Source of the DNA: Liolophura sinensis
Taxonomy: Eukaryota; Mollusca; Polyplacophora; Chitonida; Chitonidae
DNA length: 64,000 bases
Direction of reading: 5' to 3'
Assembly (NCBI RefSeq): GCF_032854445.1
Contig: NC_088302.1
Location: 56,088,237-56,152,236 of the forward strand
A program made the translations under genes and the position numbers. Shown here piece by piece: positions 7,222 through 42,514 of the stretch; position 1 is the stretch's first letter; each line of letters starts with the position of its first letter. Under the pieces are notes generated by a model. That model had not been told where the DNA came from and made no database searches. It worked only from the letters and a program-made list of their open reading frames with translations.

Positions 7222-7827
7222 TAATGACTCTCTTTTACAGAACTGCATGGTAATTACACCGCTAGACTCATCTTCAGAAATGCAGAACTACTTGATAACT
7301 ACGGCACTTGGATCCTCGCCTGAAATATAGAACTACGTTGATAATCTCTTCTCTCATACAGAACTACCTGGTAAATACGTTGCTAATCTCTTCATTTCAT
7401 GTACAGAACTACCTGTTAACTACGTTGCTAATCTCATCACTTCATATACAGAACTGTGGTAACTACATGTACATTGCTAATCTCTTCTCTTGATACTCAG
7501 AACTACATGGTAACTACGTTGGTAATCTCATCACTTCATCCACAGAACTACGTATTACAACGTTGCTACTCTCTTCTCTTGATATACCGAACCACGTATA
7601 AGTGGTAACTACGTCGCTAGTACCCTTTCCTGATATACAGAATTAGTGTACGTGGTAACTACATTGCGGAACTCTCTATTTTCGTACAGATCTACATGGC
7701 AACTACTTTGCTAATTTCTTGCTGTACAAAACTACGTGGTAACTGAGTTGCTTATATCTTCTCTTGATATACAGAACTACATGGTAACTACGTCGCTAGT
7801 ACGTCGCTAGTTTCCTCTCCTGATATA
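7222..7827. repeat. Roughly 45-55-bp minisatellite, about 12 degenerate copies
   Basis: ACAGAACTACATGGTAAC, ACGTTGCTAATCTCTTC and TTGATATAC recur with variable spacing. The array starts about 65 bp downstream (in gene direction) of exon 21. It supplies the stop codon that would end an unspliced exon 21 reading frame. Confidence 0.85.
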
Positions 7828-14456: not shown

Positions 14457-14648
14457 CTTTGACGCAGCGCGGGGGTGGGTGACTCCACTTCTCATCCTCT
14501 GTGCACACGGTGAAGGCACTGCCCGTCCGGGAGTACCCCGCCTTACACCCATAATAACACTTATCCGAAACTTCAGAGTTCCAGCGAGTACAGCGTTTGG
14601 GGAATATCAAGCCATTTTTCTGTTTAGACAGTTTGGGACATTCCTTGG
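14457..14648 (-). CDS. Exon 18: sushi (CCP) module 2, six cysteines
   Basis: A 192-bp phase 1-1 exon with acceptor cccacag|CCAAGGAATGTCC and donor AAAG|GTGAGT. The translation begins AKECPKLSKQKNG, then RCTRWN, CYYGCKAGYSRTG, VCTEDEKW and RCVKG. The six cysteines and the Trp near the C-terminus define a sushi fold with one extra disulfide pair, parallel to exon 17. It stands alone between a 4.5-kb intron and a 2.2-kb intron, both full of minisatellites. Confidence 0.9.
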
Positions 14649-18030: not shown

Positions 18031-18399
18031 CTGTATTAATCGTATCGAATCTAGCGAAATGACGTGTACAGTAATACTGTTATATTGTAGTCGCGCAACC
18101 GAAAATGGAGTCTTCTCTGCCGACATAAAAGCTGGGGATGAATACTATACCTCTTAAATGAGAACAACTTTGTGGTAGCCTATTGCTAACAAGTCTGCTT
18201 TTATGTATCCAGGTGAAAAATTGGTCTGGTTTATAAAGAGGTGTTAAAGGCTCTATTTTCATCGTATTTCAAATATAGGATTTCATATATCGTGTATAGA
18301 CTACTCAGTCAGATACATTTATTTTAGGTTTCATTACATCACTTTCACAAAGCCAGATACAACGGAATACCATGGACTTGTGTTCTTGTGTCGTGAGAT

Positions 18400-19142
18400 G
18401 TGACTGACCTGTACAGTAGGTGTCATGAGATGTGGCTGTCCTATACAGTGAGTACCATGAAATGTGACTGTCCTATACAGTGAGTATCATGAGATGTTAC
18501 TGTCCTATACAGTGAGTGTCATGAGATGTGACTGGTCTATACAGTGAGTGTCCCGAGATGTTACTGACCTATATAGTAGGTGTCATGGGATGTGACTGTC
18601 CTATACAGTGAATACGGTGAGATGTGACTGACCTATACAGTGAGTGTCGTTAAATGTGAATAACCTATACAGTGAGTGTCGTGAAATGCGACTGACGTAT
18701 ACAATAGGTATCATGAGATGTGAGATTTCACTGACCTATAGAGTGAATGTCGTGAGATGTGATTGACCTGTACCGGGAGTGTCGTGAGATGTGACTGATC
18801 TATACAGTGAGTGTCGTGAGACGTGACTGACCTGTACAACTAAAGTTGTGAGATGTGACTGACCTAAACAATGAGTGTCATGAGATGTGACTGACCTATA
18901 CAGTCTGTGTCGTCAGATGTTACTGACCTATTCAGGGAGTGTCGTGAAATGTGACTCAACCATGCACTGTGTGTTATGAGATGTGACTTACCTAAACGGT
19001 GACTGTCATGAGATGTGACTGGCACAAACAGTAAGTATCATGAGATGTGACTGACTTATACAGTGATTGTCATGAGACGTGACTGACCTACATGTATACA
19101 GTGAGTGTAGTGAGATGTGACTGACCTATACAGTGAGTGTCG
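18400..19142. repeat. 32-bp minisatellite derived from the exon 17 donor junction, about 22 copies
   Basis: The unit includes GAGATGTGACTGACCTATAC and AGTGAGTGTC. The right end overlaps the last 17 bp of exon 17 and its donor. Reading on the gene strand, most units keep the TATAG|GTCAGT exon/donor boundary. The array therefore consists of serial copies of a working 5' splice junction. Confidence 0.93.
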
Positions 19143-19323
19143 CTCCCGCTCCACTCTCCGGTAGCCAAGCAATTTCTCCTCTCGCTCCCCAGCATTTTGT
19201 AGGCGCTAGGGCAGCTGAAGTAGCAGGTAATGCCTACTTTGATCCCCGGTCCCGGGGGAGTGCTGCAACCGCTGGGGCGCATGTCTCCGAAAGTCGGGAT
19301 GGCCAGAATGTAGCAGAAGCGCT
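19126..19323 (-). CDS. Exon 17: sushi (CCP) module 1, six cysteines
   Basis: A 198-bp phase 1-1 exon. The acceptor has a pyrimidine tract ending in cccatag, and the donor is TATAG|GTCAGT. The module runs from ERFCYILAIPTFGDM through GCSTPP, CYFSCPSAYKMLG and RRNCLATGEWSG to THC. It has six cysteines rather than the canonical four. The added pair and the CxFxC...G...C.A.G.WS pattern recall the sushi domains of selectins and SVEP1-like proteins. The last 17 bp of the exon and its donor form the seed of the adjacent 32-bp minisatellite. Confidence 0.85.
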
Positions 19324-30171: not shown

Positions 30172-30297
30172 CCAAACAGTTACGGCCGTCGCTGCTAAGG
30201 ACAAAACCCTCATTTCTACACAAGCACGTGTACGACCCCTTGGTGTTTCTGCAGGTATCTTCACACAGCCCGGACAACTCGTAACACTCGTTAATAT
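30172..30297 (-). CDS. Exon 11: calcium-binding EGF module
   Basis: A 126-bp phase 1-1 exon with acceptor atgttatag|ATATTAACG and donor TTGG|GTAAGT. It begins DINECYELSGLC and contains CRNTKGSYTCLC, a complete cbEGF signature, with six cysteines. It is followed in the transcript by a 4.9-kb intron that is mostly minisatellite (28-bp and 58-bp families). Confidence 0.92.
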
Positions 30298-30334
30298 CTA
30301 TAACATAAACAATATACAGTGACGAGTCCACAAT

Positions 30335-31255
30335 TCAAGCAGGCACTTCACATTACCATGAATCTATTGTCACGTGTCTACAATATCACATGTCCACAAT
30401 TCCAAGAACATTCAGACACTTCACATTACCCAGAACCTATTGTCATGTGTCTACAAAAACACATGTCCACAATTCCAAGGACATTCAGACACGTCACATT
30501 ACCCAGAACCTATTGTCACGTGTCTACAATATAAACATGGAGACTAAAGCCAGAGAAGCGACGACAATGTCAAGAACACACAGTCATATGTCTACAATAC
30601 AAATAACGTACAGTTACGCGTCCACAACACCAATAAAATACTGTTACATATCCAAAATACAAAGAAAACAGAATGTCCACAATACCAAGAACTTGTAGAC
30701 CAAAATGAGTTACTTTGAACAAATACTGGAGTAAAGTCAAAAGCACACGACTGCAAAATTATCAAAGTCATATGTCCATAAAACCACGAGCATAAAATCA
30801 CATTTCCACAGTGACAAGATCATACAATCACACTTCCACAGTGACAAGATCATACAATCACGCTTCCACAGTGACAAGAGCATAAAATCACACTTCCTTA
30901 GTGACAAGATCATACAATCACACCTCCACAGTGACAAGAGCATAAAATCTCATTTCCACAGTGAAAGGAGCATAAAATCACATTTCCACAGTGACAAGAG
31001 CATACAATCACATTTCCACAGTGACAAGAACATACAATCACATTTCCACAGTGACAAGAACATACAATCACATGTTCACAACAAGAAGATAAACTCACAT
31101 GTTCACAATAACAAGAACATAAATTCACATGAAGTTCATAATAACAAGAGTATAAACTCACATGTTCACAATAACAAAGACGTGCAGTCACATGTCTGCA
31201 ATGCCAAGAACATACAGTCACAAGTTAACAACACACAGAAACTATAGTCCTTAGT
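30335..31255. repeat. Composite minisatellite: 73-bp blocks, then a 30-bp array
   Basis: Two 73-bp blocks (ACATGTCCACAATTCCAAG, ACATTACCCAGAACC) lie at 30.39-30.53 kb. From about 30.79 kb a 30-bp unit (AATCACATTTCCACAGTGAC, AAGAGCATAC) repeats about 10 times and then degenerates. It begins within about 40 bp of exon 11. Confidence 0.85.
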
Positions 31256-36440: not shown

Positions 36441-36777
36441 GAAAGAGATATTAGCAATACGTTAGACAATCCAGCGCTTACGCTACTTATTTTTGAACAG
36501 CGCTTTTTTTTGTAGAAAATTGGTACGACCAGGGGTTTTTTTTACCTACGGCTACGAATGATGCTAAGAGACCCGCGGAACAGTGAAAATGGTTATCTGA
36601 AGGCAAGATGGCATTTCGGTCCCAAAAGTGCCTTCTTATTCGTATTTTTTAAAAGGTTTTCTCCGAACCAGAGTAAAAACAAAGTTCTAATAAATATATA
36701 TTTAGTTCTAAATAAAACGTTTTACAATTCCGTTAAGGAGTGATTTACACGTCAACGCCATACCCAAACCTATTTCA

Positions 36778-39700
36778 GGTAAATATGGATGGTCAGCTTT
36801 ATGAGGAGATGACAGCAGGTAAATATGGATGGTCAGGTTTATGAGGAGATGGCAGCAGGTAAATATGGATGGTTAGGTTTATGAGGAGATGGCAGCAGGT
36901 AAATATGGATGGCCAGGTTTATGCGGAGATGACAGTAGGTAAATATGGATGGTCAGGTTTATGAGGAGATGACAGCAGGTAAATATGGATGGTCAGCTTT
37001 ATGAGGAGATGGCAGCAGGTAAATATGGATGGTCAGGTTTATGAGGAGATGACAGCAGGTAAATATGGATGGTCAGGTTTATAAGGAGATGACAGCAGGT
37101 AAATATGGATGGTCAGGTTTACGATGAGATGACAGTAGGTAAATATGGATGGACAGGTTTATGAGGAGATGACAGCAGGTAAATATGGATGGTTAGGTTT
37201 ATGAGGAGATGACAGCAGGTAAATATGGATGGTCAGGTTTATAAGGAGATGACAGCAGGTAAATATGGATGGTCAGCTTTATGAGGAGATGACAGCAGGT
37301 CAATATGGATAGTCAGGTTTATGAGGAGATGACAGTAGGTAAATATGGATGGTCAGCTTTACAATGAGATGACAGCAGGTAAATATGGATGGTCAGGTTT
37401 ATGAGGAGATGACAGCAGGTAAATATGGATGGTCAGGTTTATAGGAGATGACAACAGGTAAATATGGATGGTCAGCTTTATAGGAGATGACAGTAGGTAA
37501 ATATGGATGGTCAGGTTTATGAGGAGATGACAGCAGGTAAATATGGATGGACAGGTTTATGAGGAGATGACAGCAGGTAAATATGGATGGTTAGGTTTAT
37601 GAGGAGATGACAGCAGGTAAATATGGATGGTCAGGTTTATAAGGAGATGACAGTAGGTAAATATGGATGGTCAGCTTTATGAGGAGATGACAGCAGGTCA
37701 ATATGGATAGTCAGGTTTATGAGGAGATGACAGTAGGTAAATATGGATGGTCAGCTTTACGATGAGATGACAGCAGGTAAATATGGATAGTCAGGTTTAT
37801 GAGGAGATGACAGTAGGTAAATATGGATGGTCAGGTTTATGAGGAGATGACAGCAGGTAAATATGGATGGTCAGGTTTATAGGAGATGACAACAGGTAAA
37901 TATGGATGGTCAGGTTGATAGGAGATGACAGTAGGTCAATATGGATGGTCAGGTTTATGAGGAGATGACAGCAGGTAAATATGGATGGTTAGGTTTATGA
38001 GGAGATGACAGTAGGTAAATATGGATGGTCAGGTTTATGAGGAGATGACAGTAGGTAAATATGGATGGTCAGCTTTATGAGGAGATCACAGTAGGTAAAT
38101 ATGGATGGTCAGCTTTATGAGGAGATGGCAGCAGGTAAATACGGATGGTCAGCTTTATGAGGAGATGGCAGCAGGTCAGTATGGATGGTCAGGTTTATGA
38201 GGAGATGACAGCAGGTAAATATGGATGGTCAGGTTTATGAGGAGATGACAGCAGGTAAATATGGATGGTCAGGTTTATGCGGAGATGACAGCAGGTAAAT
38301 ATGGATAGTCAGGTTTATGAGGAGATGACAGCAGGTCAATATGGATGGTCAGGTTTATGAGGAGATGACAACAGGTCAATATGGATGGTCAGGTTTATGA
38401 GGAGATGGCAGCAGGTAAATATGGATGGTCAGGTTTATGAGGAGATGACAGCAGGTCAATATGGATGGTCAGGTTTATGAGGAGATGGCAGCAGGTAAAT
38501 ATGGATGGTCAGGTTTATGAGGAGATGACAGCAGGTAAATATGGATGGTCAGCTTTATGAGGAGATGGCAGCAGGTAAATATGGATGGTTAGGTTTATGA
38601 GGAGATGACAGCAGGTAAATATGGATGGTCAGGTTTATGAGGAGATGGCAGCAGGTAAATATGGATGGTCAGGTTTATGAGGAGATGGCAGCAGGTCAAT
38701 ATGGATAGTCAGGTTTATGAGGAGATGACAGTAGGTAAATATGGATGGTCAGCTTTACGATGAGATGACAGCAGGTAAATATGGATGGTCAGGTTTATGA
38801 GGAGATGACAGCAGGTAAATATGGATGGTCAGGTTTATAGGAGATGACAACAGGTAAATATGGATGGTCAGGTTGATAGGAGATGACAGTAGGTAAATAT
38901 GGATGGTCAGGTTTATGAGGAGATGACAGCAGGTAAATATGGATGGTTAGGTTTATGAGGAGATGACAGTAGGTAAATATGGATGGTTAGGTTTATGAGG
39001 AGATGACAGCAGGTAAATATGGATGGTCAGCTTTATGAGGAGATGACAGTAGGTAAATATGGATGGTCAGCTTTATGAGGAGATGGCAGAAGGTAAATAT
39101 GGATGGTCAGCTTTATGAGGAGATGGCAGCAGGTCAATATGGATGGTCAGGTTTATGAGGAGATGACAGCAGGTAAATATGGATGGTCAGGTTTATGAGG
39201 AGATGACAGCAGGTAAATATGGATGGTCAGGTTTATGAGGAGATGACAGCAGGTCAATATGGATGGTCAGGTTTATGAGGAGATGGCAGCAGGTAAATAT
39301 GGATGGTCAGGTTTATAGGAGATGACAGTAGGTCAATATGGATGGTCAGGTTTATGAGGAGATGACAGCAGGTAAATATGGATGGTCAGGTTTATGAGGA
39401 GATGGCAGCAGGTAAATATGGATGGTCAGGTTTATGAGGAGATGGCAGCAGGTAAATATGGATGGTTAGGTTTATGAGATGACAGTAGGTAAATATGGAT
39501 GGTCAGGTTTATAGGAGATGACAGCAGGTAAATATGGATGGTCAGCTTTATGAGGAGATGACAGCAGGTAAATATGGATGGTCAGGTTTATGAGGAAATG
39601 ACAGCAGGTAAATATGGATGGTTAGGTTTGTAGGAGATGACAGCAGGTAAATATGGATGGTCAGGTTTATGAGGAGATGACAGCAGGTAAATATGGATGG

Positions 39701-42452
39701 TCAGGTTTATGAGGAGATGACAGCAGGTAAATATGGATGGTCAGGTTTATGAGGAGATGACAGCAGGTAAATATGGATGGTCAGGTTTACGATGAGATGA
39801 CAGCAGGTAAATATGGATGGTCAGGTTTATAGGAGATGACAGCAGGTAAATATGGATGGTCAGGTTTATGAGGAGATGACAGCAGGTAAATATGGATGGT
39901 CAGCTTTACGATGAGATGACAGCAGGTAAATATGGATGGTCAGCTTTATGCGGAGATGACAACAGGCAAATATGGATGGTTAGGTTTATGAGGAGATGAC
40001 AGCAGGTAAATATGGATGGTCAGGTTTATGAGGAGATGGCAGCAGGTAAATATGGATGGTCAGGTTTATGCGGAGATGACAGCAGGTAAATATGGATGGT
40101 TAGGTTTATGAGGAGATGACAGCAGGTAAATATGGATGGTCAGGTTTATGCGGAGATGACAGCAGGTAAATATGGATGGTTAGGTTTATAAGGAGATGAC
40201 AGTAGGTAAATATGGATGGTCAGGTTTATAGGAGATGACAGCAGGTCAGTATGGATGGTCAGGTTTATAGGAGATGACAGTAGGTAAATATGGATGGTCA
40301 GGTTTATGAGGAGATGACAGCAGGTAAATATGGATGGCCAGGTTTATGAGGAGATGACAGTAGGTAAATATGGATGGTCAGGTTTATGAGGAGATGACAG
40401 TAGGTAAATATGGATGGACAGGTTTATGCGGAGATGACAGCAGGTAAATATGGATGGTTAGGTTTATAAGGAGATGACAGTAGGTAAATATGGATGGTCA
40501 GGTTTATGCGGAGATGACAGCAGGTAAATATGGATGGTTAGGTTTATAAGGAGATGACAGTAGGTAAATATGGATGGTCAGGTTTATGAGGAGATGACAG
40601 CAGGTCAATATGGATGGTCAGGTTTATGAGATGACAGTAGGTAAATATGGATGGTCAGGTTTATGAGGAGATGACAGCAGGTAAATATGGATGGTCAGGT
40701 TTATGAGGAGATGACAGTAGGTAAATATGGATGGTCAGGTTTATGAGGAGATGACAGTAGGTAAATATGGATGGTCAGGTTTATGCGGAGATGACAGCAG
40801 GTAAATATGGATGGTTAGGTTTATAAGGAGATGACAGTAGGTAAATATGGATGGTCAGGTTTATGAGGAGATGACAGCAGGTAAATATGGATGGTCAGGT
40901 TTATGAGGAGATGACAGTAGGTAAATATGGATGGTCAGGTTTATGAGGAGATGACAGCAGGTAAATATGGATGGTCAGGTTTATGAGGAGATGACAGTAG
41001 GTAAATATGGATGGTCAGGTTTATGAGGAGATGACAGCAGGTAAATATGGATGGACAGGTTTATGAGGAGATGACAGTAGGTAAATATGGATGGTCAGGT
41101 TTATGAGGAGATGACAACAGGTAAACATGGATGGTCAGGTTTATGAGGAGATGACAGCAGGTAAATATGGATGGTCAGGTTTATGAGGAGATGACAGTAG
41201 GTAAATATGGATGGTCAGGTTTATAGGAGATGACAGCAGGTAAATATGGATGGTCAGGTTTATGAGGAGATGACAGTAGGTAAATATGGATGGATGGTCA
41301 GGTTTATGAGGAGATGACAGTAGGTAAATATGGATGGTCAGGTTTATGAGGAGATGACAGTAGGCAAATATGGATGGTCAGGTTTATGAGGAGATGACAG
41401 CAGGTAAATATGGATGGTCAGGTTTATGAGGAGATGACAGTAGGCAAATATGGATGGTCAGGTTTATGAGGAGATGACAGTAGGCAAATATGGATGGTCA
41501 GGTTTATGAGGAGATGGCAGCAGGTAAATATGGATGGTCAGGTTTATGAGGAGATGACAGCAGGTAAATATGGATGGACAGGTTTATAGGAGATGACAGC
41601 AGGTCAATATGGATAGATGGTCAGGTTTATGAGGAGATGACAGTAGGTAAATATGGATGGTCAGCTTTATGAGGAGATGGCAGCAGGTAAATATGGATGG
41701 TCAGGTTTATGAGGAGATGACAGCAGGTAAATATGGATGGTCAGGTTTATGAGGAGATGACAGCAGGTAAATATGGATGGACAGGTTTATGAGGAGATGA
41801 CAGTAGGTAAATATGGATGGTCAGGTTTATGAGGAGATGACAGCAGGTCAATATGGATGGTCAGGTTTATGAGGAGATGACAGTAGGTAAATATGGATGG
41901 TTAGGTTTATGAGGAGATGACAGCAGGTAAATATGGATGGACAGGTTAATGAGGAGATGACAGTAGGTAAATATGGATGGTCAGGTTTATGAGGAGATGA
42001 CAGCAGGTAAATATGGATGGTCAGGTTTATGAGGAGATGACAGCAGGTAAATATGGATGGTCAGGTTTATGAGGAGATAGCAGCAGGTAAATATGGATGG
42101 TTAGGTTTATGAGGAGATGACAGTAGGTAAATATGGATGGATGGTCAGGTTTATGAGGAGATGACAGTAGGTAAATATGGATGGTCAGGTTTATGAGGAG
42201 ATGACAGCAGGTAAATATGGATGGTCAGGTTTATAGGAGATGACAGCAGGTCAATATGGATGGATGGTCAGGTTTATGAGGAGATGACAGTAGGTAAATA
42301 TGGATGGTCAGGTTTATGAGGAGATGGCAGCAGGTAAATATGGATGGTCAGGTTTATGAGGAGATGACAGCAGGTCAATATGGATGGTCAGGTTTATAGG
42401 AGATGACATCAGGTCAATATGGATGGTCAGGTCTTTGAGGAGATGACAGCAG
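36778..42452. repeat. 40-bp minisatellite, about 142 copies, 5.7 kb
   Basis: The unit includes GGTAAATATGGATGGTCAGG and TTTATGAGGAGATGACAGCA. It is the largest array in the window and nearly the whole intron between exons 4 and 5. Variants (AGCTTTA, GGTCAATA, CAGTA, 2-4 bp deletions, GATG duplications) recur in repeated blocks, showing amplification of multi-unit segments. The plus strand of each unit carries CAG|GTAAAT, a 5' splice-site consensus antisense to the gene. Confidence 0.97.
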
Positions 42453-42514
42453 GTATAATATGAAGGTATTCACCGCACAACGTCACATACAGAACAAACC
42501 TCCTATCCACAAGT

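Follow-up and report, generated by a model that had tools for sequence, protein, structure and literature searches.

The region analysed here (the window) is a 64,000-nt stretch of the 609-Mb assembly, in 632 contigs, of the chiton Liolophura sinensis. Its minus strand carries a gene with a row of phase-1 EGF_CA-type exons, followed by sushi exons and then by an ephrin-receptor-like cysteine domain. The element under study is a 32-bp minisatellite (18388..19141, minus strand, 23.2 copies) that spans the boundary between one of the sushi exons and the next intron, and that repeats the 5' splice site (donor) of this exon many times inside the intron.

The sushi (CCP) exon that bears the array (19126..19323, minus strand; exon 17 of an earlier note on this DNA) is 198 nt long and of phase 1-1, as judged from its translation, its Pfam Sushi match, its acceptor (ccccatag/AGCGC, where the slash marks the splice junction here and below) and its donor. 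It shares 32-44% identity with other sushi exons of the chiton genome. The next recognised exon (14457..14648, minus strand) carries a second sushi domain, and was delimited by the acceptor at 14648 and by phase; its 3' end is approximate and was taken from the phase-1 reading. Pfam detected two Sushi stretches once these two exons were joined, and gave no match for a third sushi-like exon (acceptor 12294). The C-terminal end of the focal exon reads W-S-G-S-D-T-H-C-I-G up to the junction. Its donor (19126/19125) is in phase 1 and lies four bases past the last sushi Cys codon (TGT ATA G/GT), a spacing common to many exons of the same families in the survey described below. The first six intron bases (+1 to +6, 19120..19125, minus strand) complete the motif TATAG/GTCAGT, which was assigned as the authentic donor from phase and from the position of the last Cys codon. 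An alternative donor GT at 19132 was rejected, as it would split this codon.

Tandem Repeats Finder (TRF) reported the array with a period of 32, 75% matches and a score of 740, and alignment on the gene strand resolved it into the authentic unit, 22 further full units and a fragment. Such an array would not be explicable by chance. Its exonic edge is sharp: the last 16 exon bases (19126..19141, minus strand, positions -1 to -16) match the unit at 16/16 positions, and bases -17 to -24 at 0/8. The best 16-mer elsewhere in the exon, away from the 3' end, matches the unit at 9/16. The earlier note had described a 32-bp unit holding the end of exon 17 with its 5' splice site, in about 22 copies, and both statements were borne out. 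At every aligned position the authentic unit has the consensus base of the array, and it is identical to unit 15, located 493 nt away, which suggests turnover of the units. Owing to insertions, two units are 38 and 39 bp long, so that the offsets of the decoy donors are not pure multiples of 32 as the note had proposed.

Unit alignment and donor scoring were then used to describe the 22 decoy units (18394..19110, minus strand). GT is kept at the donor position in 14 of them, AG/GT in 12, AG/GTCAGT in nine and TAG/GTCAGT in seven. The exact TATAG/GTCAGT, which most units had been said to preserve, was found in only four (alignment read by eye). The decoys with GT start at intron offsets +38, +70, +134, +198 and onward. 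GT is lost in eight units; five of these losses fall among the last seven units, and four of those five are changes of GT to GA. This clustering fits local homogenisation of the array.

The donor model was built from 119 chiton donors, 12 of which came from the window. As the survey junctions had been assigned from phase and from the highest score under a human-type donor model, the chiton model leans towards the consensus. The authentic donor scored 3.75, above 30% of the 119 chiton donors. Scoring of the units with a 5' splice-site model, as the earlier note had proposed, gave 8/22 decoys at least as strong as the authentic donor. The strongest, TTTAG/GTAAGT (18986..18991, minus strand), lies 134 nt into the intron and scored 8.67, above 99% of the chiton donors. 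The decoys of the ladder thus do more than repeat the real site at equal strength, and this one is far stronger.

Reading through the authentic donor leads to an in-frame TAG (19088..19090, minus strand), which starts 35 nt into the intron and precedes every GT decoy. Since all 14 GT decoys lie beyond this stop, the number of units and the frame arithmetic are irrelevant in this allele, and the earlier proposal that three added units would restore the frame does not hold. Occasional use of a decoy could in principle bring an early stop into the transcript as part of a poison segment, and reduce the expression of the gene by unproductive splicing. The 14 units that keep GT, all yielding a stop, and the eight decoys that equal or exceed the real donor, one of them with a near-ideal GTAAGT, would suit such a regulatory ladder. 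We nevertheless consider it improbable. An early stop on reading into an intron is ordinary: in 113 surveyed introns the first in-frame stop started at a median of 38 nt, with half at 35 nt or less. Moreover, the donor columns are not conserved above background. The nine donor columns have a mean conservation of 0.88 versus 0.86 for the rest of the unit, 23 of the 32 rotated windows were no higher than the donor window, and the donor +2 column, at 0.73, is one of the more variable ones. The similarity of the donor columns to the rest of the unit and the rotation result therefore give no sign that donors have been kept or purged. Finally, other loci have similar ladders, both at donors and at acceptors.

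The joined acceptor and donor AG/GT in 12/22 units could also recall recursive splicing, in which each such unit would be a zero-length exon and the long intron would be removed stepwise. Acceptor scoring covered 21 positions including the authentic one, two units being left unscored. The 19 positions that hold AG scored from -9.4 to +2.0, compared with a 5th percentile of 1.2 and a median of 7.3 for real acceptors; 18 of them were below 1.2, the single position above it being 18831 (+2.0), and a clear pyrimidine tract is lacking. Recursive splice sites were rejected on these poor acceptor scores, and this explanation appears highly implausible.

In order to place the array in a wider context, EGF and sushi junctions of the genome were surveyed. 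The source was the best 150 Sushi and the best 150 EGF_CA matches listed, from which 130 loci were fetched. The first 50 were the best 25 per family, and 80 more were picked by hand, roughly in score order, from the remaining 250 listed, skipping those of a cluster on contig C7, apparent duplicates, one match with stops, one locus of the window and a few others. Six loci belonging to a long-open-frame cluster on C7 (L011, L013, L016, L024, L029 and L034) were dropped before counting. The final set comprised 124 exons with 116 donors and 120 acceptors, i.e. 236 junctions; seven near-identical pairs were left among the exons, none with a spanning array.

Arrays span seven of the 236 junctions (95% interval 1.2-6.0%), namely the donors of L025, L061 and L106 and the acceptors of L035, L037, L047 and L087. 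Those of L037 and L106 have fewer than three copies, which leaves five junctions with at least three. The seven spanning arrays were stable at TRF thresholds from 40 to 150; a threshold of 30 added an eighth, low-copy one, and a threshold of 300 left six. Arrays cover about 5-7% of intron sequence at least 100 nt from a junction, 3-4% of the adjoining 20 bases and 1-3% inside the exon. Random rotation predicted 11.2 ± 3.3 spanned junctions versus the seven observed (P(sim<=obs) = 0.126). Junctions are therefore not array hotspots, and may be slightly avoided by arrays. Within the window, 20 recognised exons offer 40 edges, and the 34 arrays compared span a single one of these.

The five arrays with at least three copies (L025, L061, L047, L035 and L087) were compared with the focal one. 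The splice-site dinucleotide is kept in 8/10 decoys of L025, 9/13 of L061, 32/35 of L047, 10/15 of L035 and 4/4 of L087. The real site is equalled or exceeded in strength by six, one, ten, five and four decoys, respectively. Dinucleotide-keeping decoys lie beyond an in-frame stop in 8/8, 9/9, 32/32, 9/10 and 4/4 cases, in the same order. Conservation of the dinucleotide columns is mostly near the unit mean (0.90/0.90 for L025, 0.85/0.82 for L061, 0.94/0.91 for L047, 0.80/0.82 for L035 and 1.00/0.94 for L087).

Two of these loci have features of their own. L047 (402-1509) holds 35.8 copies of a 31-bp unit containing the acceptor GACAG/ACATGAAT, and AG is lost in the two decoys closest to the real acceptor. 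The donor-side array of L061 (551-960, on the reverse complement of the locus as fetched) consists of 29-bp units within an 87-bp higher-order repeat; of its 13 decoys, a single one has the GTAAGT of the real donor, and the remaining 12 have the weaker GTAGGT or have lost GT.

The survey also bears on the direction in which the shared bases were acquired. A purely intronic minisatellite could have grown against the exon, which would then have been converted to the repeat over the 16 shared bases. The abundance of minisatellites in the window (28,151/64,000 bases) would make a random placement near exons easy. However, the shared bases code for W-S-G-x-x-x-x-C-I-G, which is an ordinary sushi end, in the usual phase and with the usual spacing. 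Among the 116 survey donors, six exons end in ATAG and five in TGTATAG, and four of these five, all from EGF or sushi exons, have no array across the donor. Since the TGTATAG end is thus ordinary and mostly free of arrays, the exon is probably the source of the unit, and the opposite course is unlikely.

Taken together, these features suggest, with good probability, that the array is a junction-spanning minisatellite, or "mirage", in a gene for an EGF/sushi extracellular protein, and that it is a neutral by-product of minisatellite turnover tolerated by splicing. Such an array could have started with a tandem duplication, by slippage or unequal exchange, of the last 16 bases of the sushi exon together with about 16 intron bases containing the 5' splice site. 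It would then have grown on the intron side by 22 further units, which mutate and are partly homogenised, while coding constraint would bar it from going deeper into the exon. Exon definition would favour the site beside the real exon, so that the exon-proximal donor would be used, and the decoys would drift neutrally. Use of a GT decoy would lead to a premature stop; transcripts with such errors should then be eliminated as RNA and should not give protein variants. The earlier note had left the choice between a neutral by-product and a source of splicing noise or regulation; the exact edge, the donor columns that resemble the rest of the unit and the number of junction arrays, not above random, favour the neutral alternative.

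Several points weigh against this interpretation. The use of the donor at 19126 in splicing is deduced from phase and from the last Cys codon. If the choice of donor depended on strength alone, a decoy much stronger than the real one, as at 18991, would be unexpected. With 22 units the neutrality test is weak, and slight selection would be compatible with it. In L087 the dinucleotide is kept in all four decoys, above the unit mean, although these are four decoys only. In addition, no close near copy without an array was found in the genome for the focal exon, L047 or L025, and, in the lack of a close paralogue, the direction of origin rests on the ordinary form of the exon.

The region is unusually rich in minisatellites. 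The masked tandem arrays represent 44% of the window (TRF score of at least 50), compared with 6.3% in 50 other genome loci (TRF score of at least 40). The largest feature is a 142-copy array of a 40-bp unit (36776-42462, 93% matching), where GC skew is very strong, up to 0.675 in 2-kb windows. The units of 34 arrays, a subset of those reported by TRF, were compared with 20 exon regions, several of whose ends are approximate. The focal array gave a z of 22.6 and the array at 7331-7592 a z of 13.0, followed by three arrays at 3.4-4.4 and the others at 2.0 or less. The idea that deep-intronic arrays of the window are relics of other mirages was thus abandoned, as only these two stood out. On the minus strand, the array with a unit of about 45 bp at 7331-7592 seems to extend in degenerate form over 7331-7815 to the open-frame end of the ephrin-receptor-like exon, whose last codons have repeat-like letters. 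It may be another junction-spanning array, the exon end being approximate. A 73-bp-unit array (30300-30532, minus strand) likewise seems to reach, in degenerate form, the acceptor of an EGF exon at 30297.

The closest known structures are the mirages of amphioxus. According to the available excerpts of PMC3087553, 5' and 3' boundaries are duplicated there and many units carry AG/GT signals, RT-PCR (reverse transcription PCR) suggested that regular splicing is undisturbed, length instability was reported, and intron gain from the units was proposed. Unit lengths given in these excerpts are 10-72 bp for Adh3 and 150-160 bp for the globins, so that the chiton unit of 32 bp lies inside the reported range. 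The globin cases named in the excerpts are BflGb6 and BflGb9; the Adh3 mirage is considered here through the passages of papers that cite it. PGBD5 was added as a further case in PMC3902484, which cites Adh and troponin C in the portion available. As in amphioxus, the chiton unit joins the exon end (16 bases) to the adjoining intron donor, and the splice signal persists in many units and is lost in others (14/22 GT; 7/22 TAG/GTCAGT). In contrast, the host is a mollusc and not a cephalochordate, there are 22 extra units, and one decoy is stronger than the real site. Whereas correct splicing and length instability were reported for amphioxus in those excerpts, the chiton array is known from the sequence of one assembly. 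The name "mirage" describes structure and not descent.

Two other systems are comparable. Intron gain by tandem duplication of AGGT-bearing exon segments, as in the Rogers model, the 24-bp arrays of fission yeast and ATP2A1, is treated in the accessible part of PMC4974935. The chiton tandem copies also contain AG/GT. However, that model, as presented there, creates a new intron, whereas in the chiton the donor of an existing intron was copied into that intron and no new intron was seen; the phase 1-1 edge of the sushi exon looks ancestral. Internal tandem repeats in human segmental duplications, with units of about 30 bp on average, alter exon/intron structure, and some lie at exon-intron boundaries and provide cryptic splice sites (PMC2812944, in the sections available). 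Those sections describe recent primate paralogues with transcript support, whereas no second copy of the chiton locus was found.

In the open-licence literature searched, other papers being outside the search, arrays under the name of mirages were reported from amphioxus, and no mirage was found described in a chiton or other mollusc. That search also returned no paper on chitons and minisatellites, and words that begin with minisatellite, tandem or intron are absent from the main text of the paper on the chiton genome (PMC11068029). The portions available of reports on conotoxin, G-protein alpha and chicken MUC2 genes describe no junction-spanning array, and those on earthworm metallothionein genes mention minisatellites within an intron and describe no junction-spanning array either.

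The structure is therefore of a known kind, here in a mollusc, and is most likely neutral. With the focal array and seven more among the 236 junctions, mirages may arise wherever minisatellites are abundant. The chances seem about even that they are a general feature of the chiton genome, affecting some 1-6% of exon junctions if EGF and sushi exons are representative, at donors and acceptors alike, with the proximal copy chosen by position. At such loci, exon ends could be wrongly placed by gene predictors and by the mapping of short reads. Mirage loci are repeated natural cases of near-identical splice signals that compete while differing mainly in position. Several of the arrays have decoys that match or outdo the real site in strength. 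If mirages are indeed general, the chiton spliceosome would routinely have to pick the exon-proximal copy by position and not by strength, and these loci would be ready-made natural competition experiments on splice-site choice.
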